The position numbers were made by a program, and so were the translations under genes. A DNA stretch of 39,079 nucleotides from an uncultured Eubacterium sp. (lineage in GTDB: Bacteria > Bacillota > Clostridia > Oscillospirales > Acutalibacteraceae): NCBI GenBank assembly GCA_905233545.1, contig CAJOEV010000017.1, forward strand, positions 1 through 39,079. The letters run 5' to 3'. Of this stretch, positions 7,976 through 39,079 are shown in pieces (positions within the stretch are counted from its first letter, which is position 1; every line of letters starts with the position of its first letter). The notes under the pieces were generated by a model. That model made no database searches, was not told the origin of the DNA, and saw only the letters and a program-made list of their open reading frames with translations.

Positions 7976-8778
7976 TATATTGATTTTACAATCTCCTTAA
8001 TGAGTTTTTCAAAATTCTGTGAGACACTGTCAGCCGTTTCAACAACCTCTTCACCCGACAGCTTTTTGTCAAGTATTCCGCATGCATAGTTTGTTATAAG
8101 ACTGATTGCACAAACCTTGAATCCGCAGTGAACGGCAGCAATCGTTTCAATTGCAGTGCTCATTCCGACCGCATCTGCACCTAAGGCAGAAATCATTTTT
8201 ATCTCGGCGGGAGTTTCGAATTGAGGACCTTTGAGCTGACAGTAAACTCCTTTTTTTAGCGGAATACTATTATTTATCGCAACTTCTTTAATTGTTTTTT
8301 GAAGTTCAATATCATATGCGTTGCTCATATCAGGAAACCGATTTCCGAGAAAATCAATGTTTTTGCCGATAAGAGGGGAGTCAACGAAACATGATATGTG
8401 GTCGCTTATCATCATAAAGTCACCTGGCTTTAAATCCTTGTTTATTCCTCCTGCGGCATTGGTAAGAATAAGTTTCTTTGCGCCCATGAGTCTCATAAGT
8501 CTTATAGGAAAAGCAATGTGTTTTGCTGAATATCCCTCATAAAGATGAACTCTGCCCTGCATTAAAACAACTTTTTTGCCTTCCATTTCACCAAAAACAA
8601 AACGTCCTCTGTGTGAGGGTGCGGTAGAAATCGGAAAGCCTTCTATATTCCTATAGTCAATAATGCATTTTATATCAATTTTATCTGCAAGCTCACCGAG
8701 CCCCGAACCGAGAACAATGGCAATTTCGGGAACTATATCGGTTTTGCTTCTTATGTATTCAAGTTGAGCCTTAAGCAT
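7975..8778 (-). CDS. punA: Purine nucleoside phosphorylase (trimeric PNP family)
   Basis: It phosphorolyses purine nucleosides (inosine, guanosine; here possibly methylthioinosine or deoxyinosine) to base plus ribose 1-phosphate. The 267-residue product shows the trimeric-PNP features: LGSGLG phosphate loop, [19 protein letters not shown], the substrate-binding [10 protein letters not shown] and the purine-discriminating TNYACGI with asparagine. The frame also allows a GTG at 8787, but that codon is part of the GAGGTG ribosome binding site (8790-8785), so the ATG at 8778 was chosen. It is first in the operon with mtnA and mtaD and is transcribed from a strong promoter divergent from a BMP-family lipoprotein. 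The symbol could equally be deoD-like or mtnP-like. Asparagine in TNYACGI favours 6-oxopurines, which matches a preceding deamination step. Confidence 0.9.
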
Positions 8779-8842: not shown

Positions 8843-8871
8843 TTGAAATATGTTTGTATATTTGATATTAT
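8843..8871 (+). promoter_or_regulatory. Sigma-A promoter of the BMP lipoprotein gene
   Basis: TTGAAA (8843-8848) and TATTAT (8866-8871) have a 17-bp spacer. They lie 36 bases before the ATG at 8908, which is preceded by TTGGAGG. Confidence 0.78.
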
Positions 8872-18785: not shown

Positions 18786-19088
18786 TTATTCTTCGTTTTC
18801 TGCTTCTGCAGCTTCTGCTTCCTGAATTTTGGCAAAACATTCACTGCAGTAAACAGGACGGTCTTCCTTCGGTTCAAAAGGAACCTGGCAGGATTTTCCG
18901 CATTGAGCGCAAACCGCATCGTGCATTTCTCTCGGACCTTTTAATGCAGCTTTTCTTTTGTCTCTGCAAGCCTTGCAGCGCTGTGGCTCGTTTACGAAGC
19001 CTTTTTCAGCATAAAATTCTTGCTCTCCCGCAGTGAAAACAAATTCGTTATTGCATTCCTTGCAAATCAGCACTTTGTCTTCGTACAT
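18786..19088 (-). CDS. Two-zinc-ribbon protein (zf-trcl / CxxC-x17-CxxC type)
   Basis: This small, 100-residue protein has four CxxC pairs: CKEC (residue 9 on), CKAC (near 38), CAQC (near 60) and CSEC (near 81). They form two zinc ribbons. The N-terminal one, ending in the FVNEPQRCKACRD pattern, matches the probable zinc-ribbon family zf-trcl. The second fits the CxxC-x17-CxxC family that often follows it. The tail is a run of E and A. The molecular role is not known; nucleic acid or protein binding is a guess. The ribosome binding site is AGAGAGG. It lies downstream of the SigH-like gene on the same strand with an 80-nt gap. Confidence 0.82.
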   Translation of the reverse strand: MYEDKVLICKECNNEFVFTAGEQEFYAEKGFVNEPQRCKACRDKRKAALKGPREMHDAVCAQCGKSCQVPFEPKEDRPVYCSECFAKIQEAEAAEAENEE

Positions 19089-25094: not shown

Positions 25095-25508
25095 ATGAGT
25101 AATTTTGTTATTGATAAAGATGCTTTGAAAAAAGCCTGGGGCGCAGACAGTCAGTATTGGTTTTCTCTTGTTGATTATAAAATAGTTGAAGATATCGACT
25201 TTCTTAAGTTGTCTCTTTCCGATGGAATGGATGACGATGAGATATTCAAGCTTGACGAATTCATCCCTTATTTCCATTTCAAAAGAAGCGAGCTTGCAAA
25301 GGCGTATGTTCAGACTATAACCAACACTAAAATTAAATCAAAATTTGAGATTCTTGATGATGACGCTGTTGTTGAATATTTCTGGAAATGCTTCCATGTT
25401 TATCCCGATTTATTTAAGGATGTAGAAGAATTTCAGAGCGAGTATATTTTAGGCAGACTCGAGAATTGGTGCGAAAAAAACAAAATTAATTATACTGTTG
25501 AATTATAA
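25095..25508 (+). CDS. Hypothetical acidic protein at the end of the ilv-leu operon
   Basis: I do not recognise this 137-residue protein. It is soluble, acidic and rich in aromatic residues (several F, Y and W), with no signal peptide, transmembrane segment or cysteine cluster. It has only a few cysteines near the C-terminal half (KCFHVYP, NWCEKN). The ATG at 25095 lies four bases after the leuD stop, with a weak GGAGG-like site 20-30 bases upstream inside leuD. Its codon usage looks like that of its neighbours. Position suggests co-transcription with leuCD in the place where leuB is often found, but it is not a dehydrogenase (too short, no NAD motif). No function is proposed. Confidence 0.75.
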   Translation: MSNFVIDKDALKKAWGADSQYWFSLVDYKIVEDIDFLKLSLSDGMDDDEIFKLDEFIPYFHFKRSELAKAYVQTITNTKIKSKFEILDDDAVVEYFWKCFHVYPDLFKDVEEFQSEYILGRLENWCEKNKINYTVEL

Positions 25509-25590: not shown

Positions 25591-26139
25591 ATGAAAAAGC
25601 TTTTGATAATTAACGGCTCTCCGAGAAAAAAAGGAGTTTGTGCAGAGGTGATAAACCAGGTTAAACCCTATTTTGCAGATTGCGAAATCAAGGAGTATGA
25701 CACTTATAAACTCTCTCCTGCGCCGTGTACTGCCTGCTGTTATTGTGAACAGCACGAGGGTTGTTCGAATCACGACCTCGATATTTTCTTTGAAGATTAT
25801 GAAAGCGCTGATTATGTTGCAATTTTTAGCCCTGTTTATAATAATTTCTTTCCTGCACCGCTTAAGGCTGTAATAGACAGATTTCAGCGTTATTATTCAG
25901 CTCGTTTCTGCAGGGGAGCCGACCCTGCTATTGAAAAGCCGAAAAGTGCGGGACTTGTTGTTGTAAGCGGGTCAAATGCAAGGCAGAATGCTGATTTTAT
26001 GACTAACACGCTTAAACAGTGTTTGCCGATTTTGAATACTCAGCTAAAGGCAAGGTATTATATACCCGGCACAGATTCAAAGAGCTATACTTTCAATATT
26101 ACCGAGCTTGATAAATTTGTTCATCAGCTCAGAAGATAA
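25591..26139 (+). CDS. Flavodoxin-fold NAD(P)H-dependent FMN reductase / iron-sulfur flavoprotein-like
   Basis: The 182-residue product begins LLIINGSPRKKGVC, the FMN phosphate loop of the NADPH-dependent FMN reductase family, and continues with a Rossmann-like flavodoxin fold (FSPVYNNFFPAPLKAVIDR). A cysteine cluster PCTACCYCEQHEGC has the C-x2-C-x2-C-x5-C spacing seen in iron-sulfur flavoproteins, where it can bind a [4Fe-4S] cluster. Many plain family members share it without proof of a cluster. An AAGGAG lies upstream of the ATG. It stands between two terminator-like structures and is probably monocistronic. The electron acceptor is unknown. Confidence 0.83.
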   Translation: MKKLLIINGSPRKKGVCAEVINQVKPYFADCEIKEYDTYKLSPAPCTACCYCEQHEGCSNHDLDIFFEDYESADYVAIFSPVYNNFFPAPLKAVIDRFQRYYSARFCRGADPAIEKPKSAGLVVVSGSNARQNADFMTNTLKQCLPILNTQLKARYYIPGTDSKSYTFNITELDKFVHQLRR

Positions 26140-26247: not shown

Positions 26248-26772
26248 ATGGTGATATTAGGAATAGACCCGGGTTACGCGATAATAGGCTGGGGATGCGT
26301 TGAGTACTCCCGCGGTAAGTTTTCGGTGCTCGGATACGGTGCAATAACAACCGAAGCAAAAACGCCTTTTCCCGAAAGACTTCAGATTATATACAATGAT
26401 ATGTGCTATCTCTTTGAGAAGTATAAGCCTGAAGCTATGAGTATGGAAAAGCTGTTTTATAATTCAAATCAGAAAACCGTTATTGATGTTGCGCAGGCAA
26501 GGGGAGTTATAACTCTTGCGGCTCAGATGTACGGCAAGGACATTTTTGAATATACTCCTCTGCAGGTTAAGCAGTCCGTAACAGGTTATGGAAGAGCTGA
26601 AAAGAAACAGGTTCAGGAAATGACCAAAAGTATTCTCGGGCTTAACGCTGTACCCAAGCCCGACGATACTGCTGACGCGCTTGCTATGGCAATCTGTCAC
26701 GGTCATTCAAGCGCTTCGTCAATAGGCAGGCTGAATAATATGATTAATAATCAAATCGGTGATAATAAATGA
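26248..26772 (+). CDS. ruvC: Crossover junction endodeoxyribonuclease RuvC
   Basis: It resolves Holliday junctions by symmetrical nicking. The 174-residue product has the first catalytic aspartate D7 in GIDPGYAIIGWG, the glutamate in MSMEKLFYNSNQKT, and the late KPDDTADALAMAICHGH with the remaining acidic residues. The upstream GTAGGG ribosome binding site is weak. It overlaps ruvA by four bases (ATGA). All three ruv genes are together, unlike Bacillus, which lacks ruvC and uses RecU. Confidence 0.95.
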   Translation: MVILGIDPGYAIIGWGCVEYSRGKFSVLGYGAITTEAKTPFPERLQIIYNDMCYLFEKYKPEAMSMEKLFYNSNQKTVIDVAQARGVITLAAQMYGKDIFEYTPLQVKQSVTGYGRAEKKQVQEMTKSILGLNAVPKPDDTADALAMAICHGHSSASSIGRLNNMINNQIGDNK

Positions 26773-29913: not shown

Positions 29914-30795
29914 ATGAGAGTTGCAACAGAATGGAAGGATTATGAATTAATCGACTGTGCCTGCGGTGAAAAACTTGAACGCTGGAACAGAAAGATTTTA
30001 ATTCGTCCCGACCCGCAGGTTATATGGAAAACCCCGAGAGCCCACAGACTATGGGCTCAGCCCAATGCAAAATACTTCCGCTCAAAGCATGGCGGAGGCG
30101 AGTGGAAGGCGTATTCCCGATTGCCGGGCTCATGGCAGATAAGATATAAGGATTTAACCTTTAATATCAAAACAATGGGCTTTAAGCATACAGGAATATT
30201 TCCCGAGCAGGCAGTCAACTGGGATATGGTAAGGGACATGATAAAAAGCCGAAGTCCTCAGGAGGTTAAGGTTTTAAATCTTTTTGCCTATACAGGCGGT
30301 GCAACGGTTGCCTGCCTCAAGGAGGGCGCAAGTGTTGTTCATGTTGACGCTTCAAAAGGCATGACTAACTGGGCTAAGGAAAACGCAAAAGCAAGCGGTG
30401 TTGATGAAGGCGATGTTCGCTGGATTGTTGATGACTGCATTAAGTTTGTTCAGCGTGAAATCAAAAGAGGCAACAGATATGATATCGTTATCCTCGACCC
30501 TCCCTCATACGGAAGAGGACCCAGGGGTGAGGTTTGGCATATTGAAGATTCAATCTTTGATTTTGTTGCTCTTGTTGAGCAGGTATTAAGTGCTGAGCCT
30601 CTTGCCGTTATCCTTAATTCATACACGACTGGTCTTTCTCCTTCGGTTATGAAGTATATTCTTGATGAAACAATAACAAAAAGGCGTGGCGGATTTGCAG
30701 TTGCAGACGAAATAGGTCTTCCCGTTACTCAGACGGGCGGAGTTCTTCCGTGCGGCGCTACTGCTGTCTGGTTCAGCCAAAACGGAAATATATGA
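29914..30795 (+). CDS. Class I SAM-dependent methyltransferase (RlmI/RlmK-like, probable rRNA methyltransferase)
   Basis: This 293-residue Rossmann-fold methyltransferase of the group related to RlmI/RlmK 23S rRNA m5C/m7G enzymes (Pfam Methyltrans_SAM type) has a visible SAM-binding motif I (LNLFAYTGGATVACLKEGA) and acidic loop (VHVDASKG). The motif IV loop is ILDPPSYGRGP. The N-terminal part is short and lacks a PUA domain, unlike E. coli RlmI. An AAGGATGG lies upstream of the ATG. Its stop overlaps the ecfA1 start (ATGA). The target RNA position cannot be deduced. Confidence 0.85.
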   Translation: MRVATEWKDYELIDCACGEKLERWNRKILIRPDPQVIWKTPRAHRLWAQPNAKYFRSKHGGGEWKAYSRLPGSWQIRYKDLTFNIKTMGFKHTGIFPEQAVNWDMVRDMIKSRSPQEVKVLNLFAYTGGATVACLKEGASVVHVDASKGMTNWAKENAKASGVDEGDVRWIVDDCIKFVQREIKRGNRYDIVILDPPSYGRGPRGEVWHIEDSIFDFVALVEQVLSAEPLAVILNSYTTGLSPSVMKYILDETITKRRGGFAVADEIGLPVTQTGGVLPCGATAVWFSQNGNI

Positions 30796-31655
30796 ATATA
30801 ATAGAATTTAAGAACGTTGACTTTTCGTATTTTGTTGATGAGGAAACTCAGGATTATTCCAAAACACAGAAAAGGGAAGTCGAGGTTTTAAAGAATTTTA
30901 ATCTGAATATTGAAGAGGGCTCGTTTGTTGCTGTGCTCGGTCATAACGGCTCGGGCAAATCAACAATTGCTAAGCTCACAAATGGCATTCTCGTTCCTAA
31001 CAGCGGGGAAGTTTCGGTTAACGGAATCCCCGTTAAAGAAGATGAAAGCATCTTTGATGTCAGAAGAAATGTCGGTATGGTTTTTCAGAATCCCGATAAT
31101 CAGATTGTTTCTTCAATTGTTGAAGAGGATGTTGCATTCGGAGTTGAAAATCTCGGACATCCTCCCGAGGAATGCAGAAGAAGAGTTGATGAAGCGCTTA
31201 AAACGGTTGGTATGTCCGATTTCGCCGAAAAGTCTCCGAGCAGACTATCTGGCGGTCAGAAACAGAGGGTTGCAATTGCGGGTATTATTGCAATGAAGCC
31301 CAAGTGCATCGTTCTTGATGAGCCTACTGCTATGCTTGACCCCAGCGGAAGAAAAGAGGTTATGAAAACAATCCTCAAACTTAACAGGGAAGAGGGCATA
31401 ACAATTCTTTTGATAACCCACTACATGGACGAGGCAGTTCAGGCGGACAGAGTTGTTGTCGTTGAAAAAGGCGGGATTAAACTTGACGGGACTCCGAGAG
31501 AGATCTTTTCAAATCCCGATGAAATAAGCGCATTGCATATTGATGCTCCTCAGTCAACAATGCTTATTGACAAGCTTGGAATAAAAACAAATGAAACTGT
31601 GCTGAATGCAGATGAATGTGCAGCACTTCTGTATAATAAACTGAAAGAAAACTAA
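30792..31655 (+). CDS. ecfA1: ECF transporter ATPase EcfA1
   Basis: This 287-residue ABC ATPase of the shared energy-coupling module powers vitamin uptake by interchangeable S components. Walker A is GHNGSGKST. The ECF-type Q-loop FQNPDNQIVSSIVEEDVAFG, the signature LSGGQKQR, Walker B CIVLDEPTAMLDP and the switch histidine in ITHYMDEA are all present. The ATG at 30792 overlaps the methyltransferase stop by four bases. The frame is open further upstream only because it runs through that gene. ecfA2 starts four bases after its end. Confidence 0.95.
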   Translation: MNIIEFKNVDFSYFVDEETQDYSKTQKREVEVLKNFNLNIEEGSFVAVLGHNGSGKSTIAKLTNGILVPNSGEVSVNGIPVKEDESIFDVRRNVGMVFQNPDNQIVSSIVEEDVAFGVENLGHPPEECRRRVDEALKTVGMSDFAEKSPSRLSGGQKQRVAIAGIIAMKPKCIVLDEPTAMLDPSGRKEVMKTILKLNREEGITILLITHYMDEAVQADRVVVVEKGGIKLDGTPREIFSNPDEISALHIDAPQSTMLIDKLGIKTNETVLNADECAALLYNKLKEN

Positions 31656-31659
31656 AACC

Positions 31660-32532
31660 ATGGCTATATTAGAGTGTGAAAAGTTAACATATCTATATTC
31701 AGTCGGCACTCCGTTTGAGACTGCCGCTGTTAATAATGCTGATTTTTCATGCGAAAAGGGCGAAATAATCGGAATTATCGGACATACGGGGTCGGGTAAG
31801 TCAACGCTTATTCAGCATCTAAACGGACTTCTTGAGCCCAATGACGGTAAGGTTATTCTTAACGGAAAGGACATCTGGTCCAAGAAAAATAGAAAGAACA
31901 TCAGGCAGGTGCGTTTTGCAGTCGGTCTTTGTTTCCAGTATCCCGAATACCAGATATTTGAAGAAAGCGTTTTCAAAGAAATAGCTTATGGTCCTAAACA
32001 AATGGGACTTGATGACAAAGAGATTGAAAAGCGTGTTTACGACAGTCTTGATTATGTCGGAATAAGCAGAGAGCTTGAAAAAAAGTCTCCGTTTGATTTA
32101 TCGGGCGGGCAGAAGAGAAGAATTGCAATCGCTTCAATTATTGCTATGAAACCCGATGTATTGATTCTTGATGAGCCCTGCGCTGGCCTTGACCCCAAAG
32201 GACGTGACAGAATTCTCGATTTGATAACCTCCTATCAAAGGCAGGAGGGCAACACTGTAATATTTGTTTCTCACTCAATGGAGGATATTGCAAAAATTGC
32301 AGACCGTGTTCTTGTTATGAATAAGGGCGAGGTTGCAATGTTCGGAACTGTTGATTATGTTTTTTCACATTCTAAAGAGCTTAAAGAGATGGGGCTTAAT
32401 GTACCCGAAATCACCGATGTATTCCTTAAGCTCAGTGAAATGGGAATAGACTGCAAAACAAATATCTATACTCTTGAGCAGGCGCAGAGTGAATATGAGC
32501 GTCTTATGAGTGAAAGGGGGAGCGCCGTATGA
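31660..32532 (+). CDS. ecfA2: ECF transporter ATPase EcfA2
   Basis: This is the second ATPase of the module, 290 residues, pairing with EcfA1. Walker A is GHTGSGKST, the Q-loop is FQYPEYQIFEESVFKEIAYGP, the signature is LSGGQKRR, and the H-loop is VSHSMED. Walker B reads ILDEPCAGLDP, with cysteine where threonine is usual, a conservative change outside the catalytic glutamate. There is no clear ribosome binding site, so translation is probably coupled to ecfA1. It overlaps ecfT by four bases (ATGA). Confidence 0.95.
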   Translation: MAILECEKLTYLYSVGTPFETAAVNNADFSCEKGEIIGIIGHTGSGKSTLIQHLNGLLEPNDGKVILNGKDIWSKKNRKNIRQVRFAVGLCFQYPEYQIFEESVFKEIAYGPKQMGLDDKEIEKRVYDSLDYVGISRELEKKSPFDLSGGQKRRIAIASIIAMKPDVLILDEPCAGLDPKGRDRILDLITSYQRQEGNTVIFVSHSMEDIAKIADRVLVMNKGEVAMFGTVDYVFSHSKELKEMGLNVPEITDVFLKLSEMGIDCKTNIYTLEQAQSEYERLMSERGSAV

Positions 32533-33290
32533 TGAATGATATCACTATCGGTCAGTATTTCCCCGGGAATTCACTGCTTCATAAAACTGATGCAAGAATG
32601 AAAATAGTTTTATTGCTGTTTATGATGATTTCTGTTTTTGTTTGCAAAAACTATGTTTCTCTTGCGATTGCGGCAGCTGCAACAACACTGCTTGTGATTA
32701 TCTCAAGAATAAAGCTTTCCGTTATTTTGAAAGGGCTTAAACCGCTGTTTTTTATCATACTGTTCACTGCAGTTTTAAATATCTTCTACGGAACAGGGGA
32801 GCCGATTGCACAGTTCTGGATATTCAAGATAACCGAGAGAGGACTGAATAATGCGCTGTTTATGGGAACAAGAATAATTCTTCTTGTTGTAATCGGTCTT
32901 ATGCTGACCTACACAACAACACCTACAGCGCTGACGGATGCAATTGAATCGCTGCTCAAACCTCTGAAAATCTTTAAAGCGGATGTTCATTCGCTTGCAA
33001 TGGTTATGACAATTGCGCTCAGGTTTATTCCTATTCTTCTTGAAGAGGTTCAAAAGATAATGGCTGCTCAGAAATCAAGGGGAGCCGACCTTGAAAGCGG
33101 AGGAATAATCAAAAGAGCCAAAGCAATAGTTCCGATTCTCATTCCGCTTTTTGTTTCTTCATTCAGAAGAGCGGATGAACGGCAGAACAAAAATGAAGGT
33201 TATGCACCTGCAGACAAGAGACTATTTCTCTTTGATTGCAGTTATGATATATTTTGCAGGAATAATAACAACGCGCGTTTTATTGGGTAG
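32529..33290 (+). CDS. ecfT: ECF transporter transmembrane protein EcfT, C-terminus altered by internal deletion and frameshift
   Basis: EcfT is the membrane scaffold joining the ATPases to S components. Residues 1-217 are typical: HKTDARMKI, several transmembrane helices (about 27-85 and 110-130) and coupling helix 2 with the AQKSRGADLE motif, then VPLFVSSFRRADE-type sequence at 203-217. Family members continue with LAxAMExRxYxGGEGRTK, carrying the second coupling motif. Here that part is missing, and the frame instead reads an unrelated 36-residue polar tail to the TAG at 33288. The expected continuation GRTKMK...QTRDYFSLIAV is present in the +1 frame from 33181 and ends at a TGA (33298-33300) overlapping the truA ATG. 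A deletion of about 41 nt explains both. The protein as read is probably non-functional, unless this is an assembly error. Confidence 0.88.
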   Translation: MMNDITIGQYFPGNSLLHKTDARMKIVLLLFMMISVFVCKNYVSLAIAAAATTLLVIISRIKLSVILKGLKPLFFIILFTAVLNIFYGTGEPIAQFWIFKITERGLNNALFMGTRIILLVVIGLMLTYTTTPTALTDAIESLLKPLKIFKADVHSLAMVMTIALRFIPILLEEVQKIMAAQKSRGADLESGGIIKRAKAIVPILIPLFVSSFRRADERQNKNEGYAPADKRLFLFDCSYDIFCRNNNNARFIG

Positions 33291-33300
33291 TGTTATATGA
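33181..33300 (+). pseudogene. Out-of-frame remnant of the EcfT C-terminus
   Basis: From GGC at 33181, the frame one base ahead of the ecfT frame encodes GRTKMKVMHLQTRDYF followed by a hydrophobic helix (SLIAVMIYFAGII), and stops at TGA 33298-33300. This is the normal last stretch and final transmembrane helix of EcfT. Its stop overlaps the truA ATG as ATGA, the junction type seen elsewhere in this operon, which indicates it was the original reading frame. Confidence 0.85.
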
Positions 33301-34031
33301 GAAGATTGCTTATAACTATCAGATACGACGGCTCAGCCTATCACGGCTGGCAGGTTCAGAATAATGCCCTAACCGTTCAGGAGGTCTTTCAGAACGCTGT
33401 GGAAAAGGTGTTTAATGAAAGGCTGGATGTCAAGGGCTGTTCAAGAACGGACAGCGCTGTGCACGCAAATATGTATTGCCTTACTATCGATACCGATATG
33501 AAGATTGAAAACGAAAATGTTGTTCTTGCGCTTAATACATATCTTCCGAAAGATATTGCCGTTGTTTCGTGTGAAGAAACCGATTTTGATTTTCACCCGA
33601 GATATTCCTGTAAGTCTAAGGAATATGTTTATAAAATCTATAACGGAAAAATAAGGGACCCGTTTCTTGAAAAATATGCTTTTCACTACAGATATCCTAT
33701 TGATGTTAATCTGCTGAATAAAGAGGCACAGGCATTTGTCGGAACATATGACTTCTGCGGATTTTGTTCGGTTAAAAGTGATGTTGAGGATACCGTGAGA
33801 ACGGTTAAAAGTATATCTGTAACTAAAGACGGCGATATGGTTTATATCAAGGTTGAAGCGGACGGATTTTTGTATAATATGGTTCGAATTATGGTCGGAA
33901 CGCTTCTGTTTATCAACGAAGGCAAGATTAAAGAGGGCGAACTGACAGATATAATAAACAGCAAAGAAAGAAAGAGAGCGGGTAAAACCGCTCAGCCACA
34001 GGGATTGTATTTGAATAGAATAAATTATTGA
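33297..34031 (+). CDS. truA: tRNA pseudouridine(38-40) synthase TruA
   Basis: This 244-residue enzyme converts U38, U39 and U40 of tRNA anticodon stems to pseudouridine. The start LLITIRYDGSAYHGWQVQ, the catalytic aspartate in GCSRTDSAVHA, the AKEY-like KSKEYVYKIYNG and the C-terminal FLYNMVRIMVGTLL and GLYL are all as expected. It commonly follows ecfA1-A2-T in Firmicutes. Its start overlaps the ancestral, now out-of-frame, ecfT stop. Confidence 0.96.
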   Translation: MRRLLITIRYDGSAYHGWQVQNNALTVQEVFQNAVEKVFNERLDVKGCSRTDSAVHANMYCLTIDTDMKIENENVVLALNTYLPKDIAVVSCEETDFDFHPRYSCKSKEYVYKIYNGKIRDPFLEKYAFHYRYPIDVNLLNKEAQAFVGTYDFCGFCSVKSDVEDTVRTVKSISVTKDGDMVYIKVEADGFLYNMVRIMVGTLLFINEGKIKEGELTDIINSKERKRAGKTAQPQGLYLNRINY

Positions 34032-39011: not shown

Positions 39012-39079
39012 GCGGGTGTAGTTCAATGGTAGAATCTCAGCCTTCCAAGCTGATTGCGTGGGTTCGATTCCCATCACCC
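39012..39079 (+). tRNA. tRNA-Gly (anticodon UCC), 3' end cut by the window
   Basis: The cloverleaf is drawn by eye. The acceptor strand GCGGGTG (39012-39018) pairs with the truncated CACCC at the window end. The D arm is GTTC/GAAT with an AATGGTA loop. The anticodon stem TCAGC/GCTGA encloses the loop CTTCCAA, giving anticodon TCC at 39044-39046. The T arm GTGGG/CCCAT encloses TTCGATT. Only the last acceptor bases are missing. More tRNA genes may follow outside the window. Confidence 0.95.

Follow-up and report, generated by a model that had tools for sequence, protein, structure and literature searches.

An apparent 41-nt deletion removes the second coupling motif from EcfT in the draft genome of an uncultured Eubacterium sp.

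The ecfT gene of this uncultured Eubacterium sp. lacks 41 nt that are present in its closest relative, and with them the second X-Arg-X coupling motif of the encoded protein. The reading that we favour, with moderate confidence, is that of a very recent loss-of-function allele of a group II ecfT, present in the sequenced DNA. We favour it because of the 41-nt gap itself, because the motif is kept in all 38 relative loci and because this is the sole broken copy among 57 in the genus; the intact frames of all 20 compared neighbours and the lack of a long flanking repeat lead us in the same direction. The main features of the window, i.e., the whole stretch of 39,079 nt that was analyzed, are given in Table 1.

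Table 1. Features of the ECF module and its surroundings. Positions are those of the window, except for the last row.
Feature	Position	Strand	Remarks
ecfA, energy-coupling factor ATPase 1, intact	30792..31655	+	NCBIfam TIGR04520, 361.8 bits (cut-off 315; query began one codon upstream of 30792)
ecfA', energy-coupling factor ATPase 2, intact	31660..32532	+	NCBIfam TIGR04521, 372.1 bits (cut-off 330)
ecfT as it stands	32529..33290	+	253 aa; first 217 aa normal, remainder an unrelated polar tail
Junction	33177..33182	+	41 nt absent compared with the closest relative; second X-Arg-X coupling motif gone
Orphaned former C-terminal part of EcfT	33181..33300	+	GRTKMK... and last membrane helix, out of frame
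truA, intact, downstream	33297..34031	+	single frame, 91% identity to the sister genome
Divergent CbiQ-type T protein (C24)	L058 6286-7152		followed by a two-domain ECF-like ATPase

The preliminary description had reported a normal EcfT up to residue 217, and translation of the open reading frame bore this out. The gene starts in an ATGA overlap with ecfA' (32529-32532), and FRRADE occupies residues 212-217, with its last base at 33179. In the gene's own frame, FRRADE is followed by RQNKNEGYAPADKRLFLFDCSYDIFCRNNNNARFIG; this frame enters RQNKNEGYAPADKRLFLF... and reaches its stop at 33290. The next frame, open from 33181, reads GRTKMKVMHLQTRDYFSLIAVMIYFAGIITTRVLLGSVI and stops at 33298-33300, where it overlaps the truA ATG at 33297. 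Both the shift of frame and the still-readable former tail had therefore been described correctly. An ATGA junction style had also been attributed to the whole operon; it was observed at ecfA'/ecfT and, if the shifted frame is read, also at ecfT/truA. The ecfA/ecfA' junction does not show it: the stop ends at 31655 and the next start is at 31660.

The closest relative found was Eubacterium sp. isolate RGIG3418 (L033, the sister genome), a metagenome genome from goat reticulum. Its EcfT is intact (270 aa) and shares 92% identity with that of the window across the first 217 residues. Global alignment of the two genes contained a single internal gap, at the junction, and its 41 nt agreed with the size initially proposed. 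The stretch missing from the window reads LADAMECRCYRGSE in the sister and contains the second X-Arg-X motif, while the orphaned tail matched residues 231-270 of the sister EcfT with 77.5% identity (tblastn). As had been claimed, this motif (AMExRxY) is lost: it was absent from the window in either frame and present in frame in all 38 relative loci, which were drawn from two relative sets (29 and nine loci; 35 recognized by pattern, and L028, L029, and L041 individually). These correspond to about 37 distinct loci, as L034 and L004, which are of equal length and gave an identical match, are probably one contig under two names. In the alignment to close relatives, none exhibited the in-frame tail of the window, and the claim of a lesion stands.

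A draw of 60 genomes of the genus, including the window's own, was searched with the full EcfT protein of the sister. A match was obtained in 58 genomes and an orthologue (at least 58% identity in the matched part) in 57, the match in G337 being a paralogue only (31% identity) and left out. Fifty-six of the 57 orthologues, two of which (G004 and G009) were cut on the 5' side by a contig end, reached query residue 253 or beyond in a single frame. The window's copy alone was in two pieces, residues 1-220 and 231-270, in different frames. No EcfT match was found in G016 and G019, both of which are incomplete genomes (73% and 68%, respectively). In an order-wide search, a stop before query residue 249 was observed, among the matches listed, in the window's copy only. 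The gene thus combines a frame-breaking lesion with intact orthologues in relatives, as would be expected of a recent pseudogene.

Viral sequences were also searched. The junction had no match in IMG/VR viral contigs (0 matches). In a phage collection, six 'Bacteriophage sp.' records from human faeces matched the region at 68-87% identity; none covered 80% of the query, and they were set aside as a source of information on the junction. These unannotated records (MT836353.1, MT836546.1, and four others), which match chromosomal ecfT, are possibly bacterial DNA filed as phage.

The window ORF scored 133.8 bits with the Pfam CbiQ profile (cut-off 25), which assigns it by sequence to the CbiQ/EcfT fold, and the match reached profile position 198 of 216, versus 215 of 216 in the sister protein. 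The first X-Arg-X motif is present (AQKSRGAD), and its counterparts in solved EcfT, AQRSRGAD and AQRARGVD, align with the same place in the sister EcfT. In the gene's own frame, the tail is polar, with a maximum 19-residue hydropathy of 0.27 and no hydrophobic helix. In the other frame, the old tail reaches 2.0 (2.1 to 2.2 in three relatives), and the C-terminal membrane helix that follows coupling helix 3 is encoded in this next frame only. Because the motif stretch is gone and the new tail contains no hydrophobic helix, the protein has lost its second coupling motif as well as its last membrane helix.

Both Arg motifs of EcfT are described as ATPase contact sites (PMC3246461), and the X-Arg-X motifs as anchoring CH2 and CH3 in EcfA and EcfA' (PMC10368641). 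Replacement of either Arg is reported to render group II ECF transporters inactive and destabilized (PMC3246461, citing Neubauer 2009), and single Arg replacements to be partly tolerated in the group I transporter BioMNY (PMC3246461). From these published mutants of other ECF transporters, we infer that the window's EcfT is non-functional. If the allele is real, a single deletion of 41 nt would have taken away the last part of coupling helix 3 together with the X-Arg-X anchor that it carries, and the resulting change of frame would mean that the last membrane helix is no longer made. Deprived of its second anchor, EcfT should be unable to link the EcfA/EcfA' pair with the S components, and cells with this allele should, by analogy with those mutants, have a shared vitamin-uptake module that is dead or almost dead.

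The surroundings of the gene appeared undisturbed. Compared with the sister genome, ecfA and ecfA' were each in a single frame. In the comparison with the sister contig, 21 ORFs (ecfT and 20 others) were picked by hand, with overlapping shadow ORFs left out; the comparison starts at window position 18789. All 20 other genes were in a single frame (window 18789-38957), which indicates that the assembly is not noisy across the compared region. By eye, the junction had no flanking repeat long enough for assembly-graph collapse. The tetranucleotide TGAA is found on both sides near the junction (by eye, with the sister as a stand-in for the ancestor), but slippage between these copies would not, with this stand-in, have produced exactly the junction observed, and we propose no mechanism for the deletion.

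Several other features of the window were recorded. A gene of the NADPH-dependent FMN reductase/flavodoxin-like family (25591-26139) is flanked by the genes at 25095-25508 and 26248-26772; on the sister contig, the first of the corresponding flanks ends at 8701 and the next begins at 8866, too close together for such a gene to fit. The 137-aa protein encoded at 25095-25508 has no Pfam match at E 0.001 and shares 54% identity with its sister counterpart versus 94-97% for the compared flanking genes, an unusually fast change. A T-box leader (RF00230) was located at 447-692 on the + strand, and a tRNA gene at 39012-39079 is truncated by the contig end.

The divergence of the orphaned tail bears on the age of the lesion. 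Compared with the sister, 14 of its 21 differences are third-position changes in the old frame (dN/dS about 0.2), a bias that points to selection on the protein during much of the divergence. When the window was one member of a pair, the dN/dS of the tail was about 0.19-0.27; for pairs of intact relatives, it was about 0.06-0.13 (synonymous sites near saturation). Higher values with the window are as expected if selection lapsed, but they come from 39 codons only. The three tail changes assigned to the window branch were all replacements. Over the whole gene, replacements made up 8 of the 14 changes on the window branch and 6 of the 25 on the sister branch, a tendency towards replacement in the window that was not significant (Fisher P 0.08; P 0.22 for the upstream part alone). 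Such lineage-specific counts are too small to demonstrate relaxed selection. The deletion event itself appears to have been recent.

The genome consists of 2.23 Mb in 76 contigs and is 97.56% complete. A search of it with the first 217 residues of EcfT gave one match, so that a second group II EcfT was not found, in agreement with the genus draw. Eleven S-component loci scored above Pfam cut-offs (eight PF12822, two PF07155, and one BioY), the single above-cut-off ThiT match being one of the eight PF12822 loci; all 11 are stop-free within the match. The ecfT gene adjoins ecfA-ecfA' and the S components are scattered in the genome, which is the group II arrangement. One PF12822 protein (L042 1459-2127) is encoded directly behind an FMN riboswitch, where RibU would be expected, and is called RibU-like here, the riboswitch being the sole ground for assigning it to riboflavin; its best NCBIfam score was obtained with a folate-family model, below the cut-off. 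No curated cut-off was passed in an NCBIfam scan of 10 of the 11 loci, and substrates were assigned by family to BioY and ThiT only (Pfam).

Lumazine synthase RibH was not found in the window's genome, nor in any of the 41 genomes of the genus covered by the search, of which 27 are at least 90% complete; the controls were positive in 14 out of 14 cases. The genus probably needs external riboflavin. Given the lack of RibH in 41 out of 41 genomes, the presence of an S component behind an FMN riboswitch, and the 11 S-component loci that are still free of stops, loss of EcfT should be costly, and ecfT should be close to essential in the window's genome. By analogy with Listeria, such a loss need not be lethal: a single ecfT knockout of Listeria is described as growing like the wild type, with FmnA substituting, and a ribU knockout as still growing with riboflavin through another, unknown entry route (PMC9973259).

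The suggestion that a second EcfT might exist elsewhere was weakly borne out by one other T-like protein, C24, and not by any second group II EcfT. C24 is too divergent to be reached by a search with the window's EcfT and, by eye, has no Arg at the position of the first motif. Together with its fused two-domain ECF-like ATPase (L058 6286-8606), it lies behind a MreB/actin-like gene (named by eye). When C24 was searched in the genus, a match was obtained in 39 of the 41 genomes, and nearly full-length relatives with at least 30% identity were present in 35; the matches outside these 35 were short, or were weak hits to ordinary EcfT. In five of the 12 C24-type loci (pattern-matched, by eye), the first motif lacked its usual central Arg and the second (ARG) was kept. 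C24 is an ordinary companion in the genus rather than a newly gained replacement: since it is widespread where the ordinary EcfT is otherwise intact, it was not acquired with the loss.

It is quite possible that the true ecfT is intact and that the lesion was introduced locally during assembly, binning, or consensus calling, or that the consensus was taken from a minor allele or a chimeric read. Such an error would fit a gene expected to be near-essential in a genus where none of the 41 genomes searched had RibH, intact in all 56 other orthologues seen and accompanied in this genome by retained S components; because of that near-essentiality, a null as the dominant allele is unlikely a priori, which favours an artefact. 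In addition, the genome is a 76-contig draft, and nine of the nine named relatives are metagenome-assembled genomes. However, no frame break occurs in any of the 20 neighbouring genes compared, no long direct repeat was seen by eye that would lead an assembler to skip 41 nt, and only one ecfT copy was found in the genome, all of which argue against an error.

Other explanations accept the deletion and differ in its consequences. A real loss might be tolerated because the role of EcfT passes to C24, or uptake to a different route, much as FmnA replaces EcfT for flavin import in Listeria; this we consider improbable. The genome does encode C24 as a further T protein, with a two-domain ATPase of its own, and both Listeria knockouts are reported to grow (PMC9973259), but C24 is too divergent for detection with the window's EcfT, is devoid of Arg at the first-motif place, and has nearly full-length relatives in 35 of the 41 genomes of a genus whose ordinary EcfT is otherwise intact. 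It is equally hard to credit that the deletion is real and established, with a riboflavin-dependent bacterium living on an ECF module that lacks one ATPase anchor and C24 or an unknown route serving the 11 S components. Least probable of all, the altered EcfT could still work, through its new tail or by ribosomal frameshifting into the old one. Up to residue 217 the protein looks normal, and the old tail can be read without a stop as far as the truA overlap; however, frameshifting cannot restore the missing motif, single Arg replacements are reported to suffice to inactivate group II transporters (PMC3246461), and the new tail is shared by no relative read. Overall, the most likely account is an ordinary broken allele of very recent origin or an error confined to this site, and not a new mechanism.

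Each of these two outcomes carries its own lesson. If the allele is real, this strain should have lost in one step the uptake of all those vitamins that depend on the shared motor, and it would show, as an experiment of nature, whether these gut bacteria can survive without it. If it is an error, it illustrates how a key module can seem to be missing because of one gap in a draft genome, and calls for caution with automatic predictions of vitamin dependence.

The EcfT chains of solved group II structures (PDB 5d3m, 4huq, 4hzu) are matched by the sister EcfT over residues 4-255 or 4-261; compared with them, the window frame is without the second X-Arg-X motif and the last membrane helix. Among the papers listed in literature searches on EcfT and ECF transporters, none was recognized as a report of this case. 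As described in PMC6102330, S. aureus has, like the window, ecfA and ecfA' directly upstream of ecfT, with truA named in the same figure legend, and an ecfT frameshift null arose there in one small-colony variant. That deletion was judged against a parent strain, whereas the lesion of the window is known from a draft genome alone. In both cases, a small out-of-frame deletion lies in ecfT and the ecfAA'T module is otherwise present, but the S. aureus deletion is of 2 nt and lies close to the midpoint of ecfT (residue 114 of 268; PMC6102330), and that of the window is of 41 nt, near the end of the gene.
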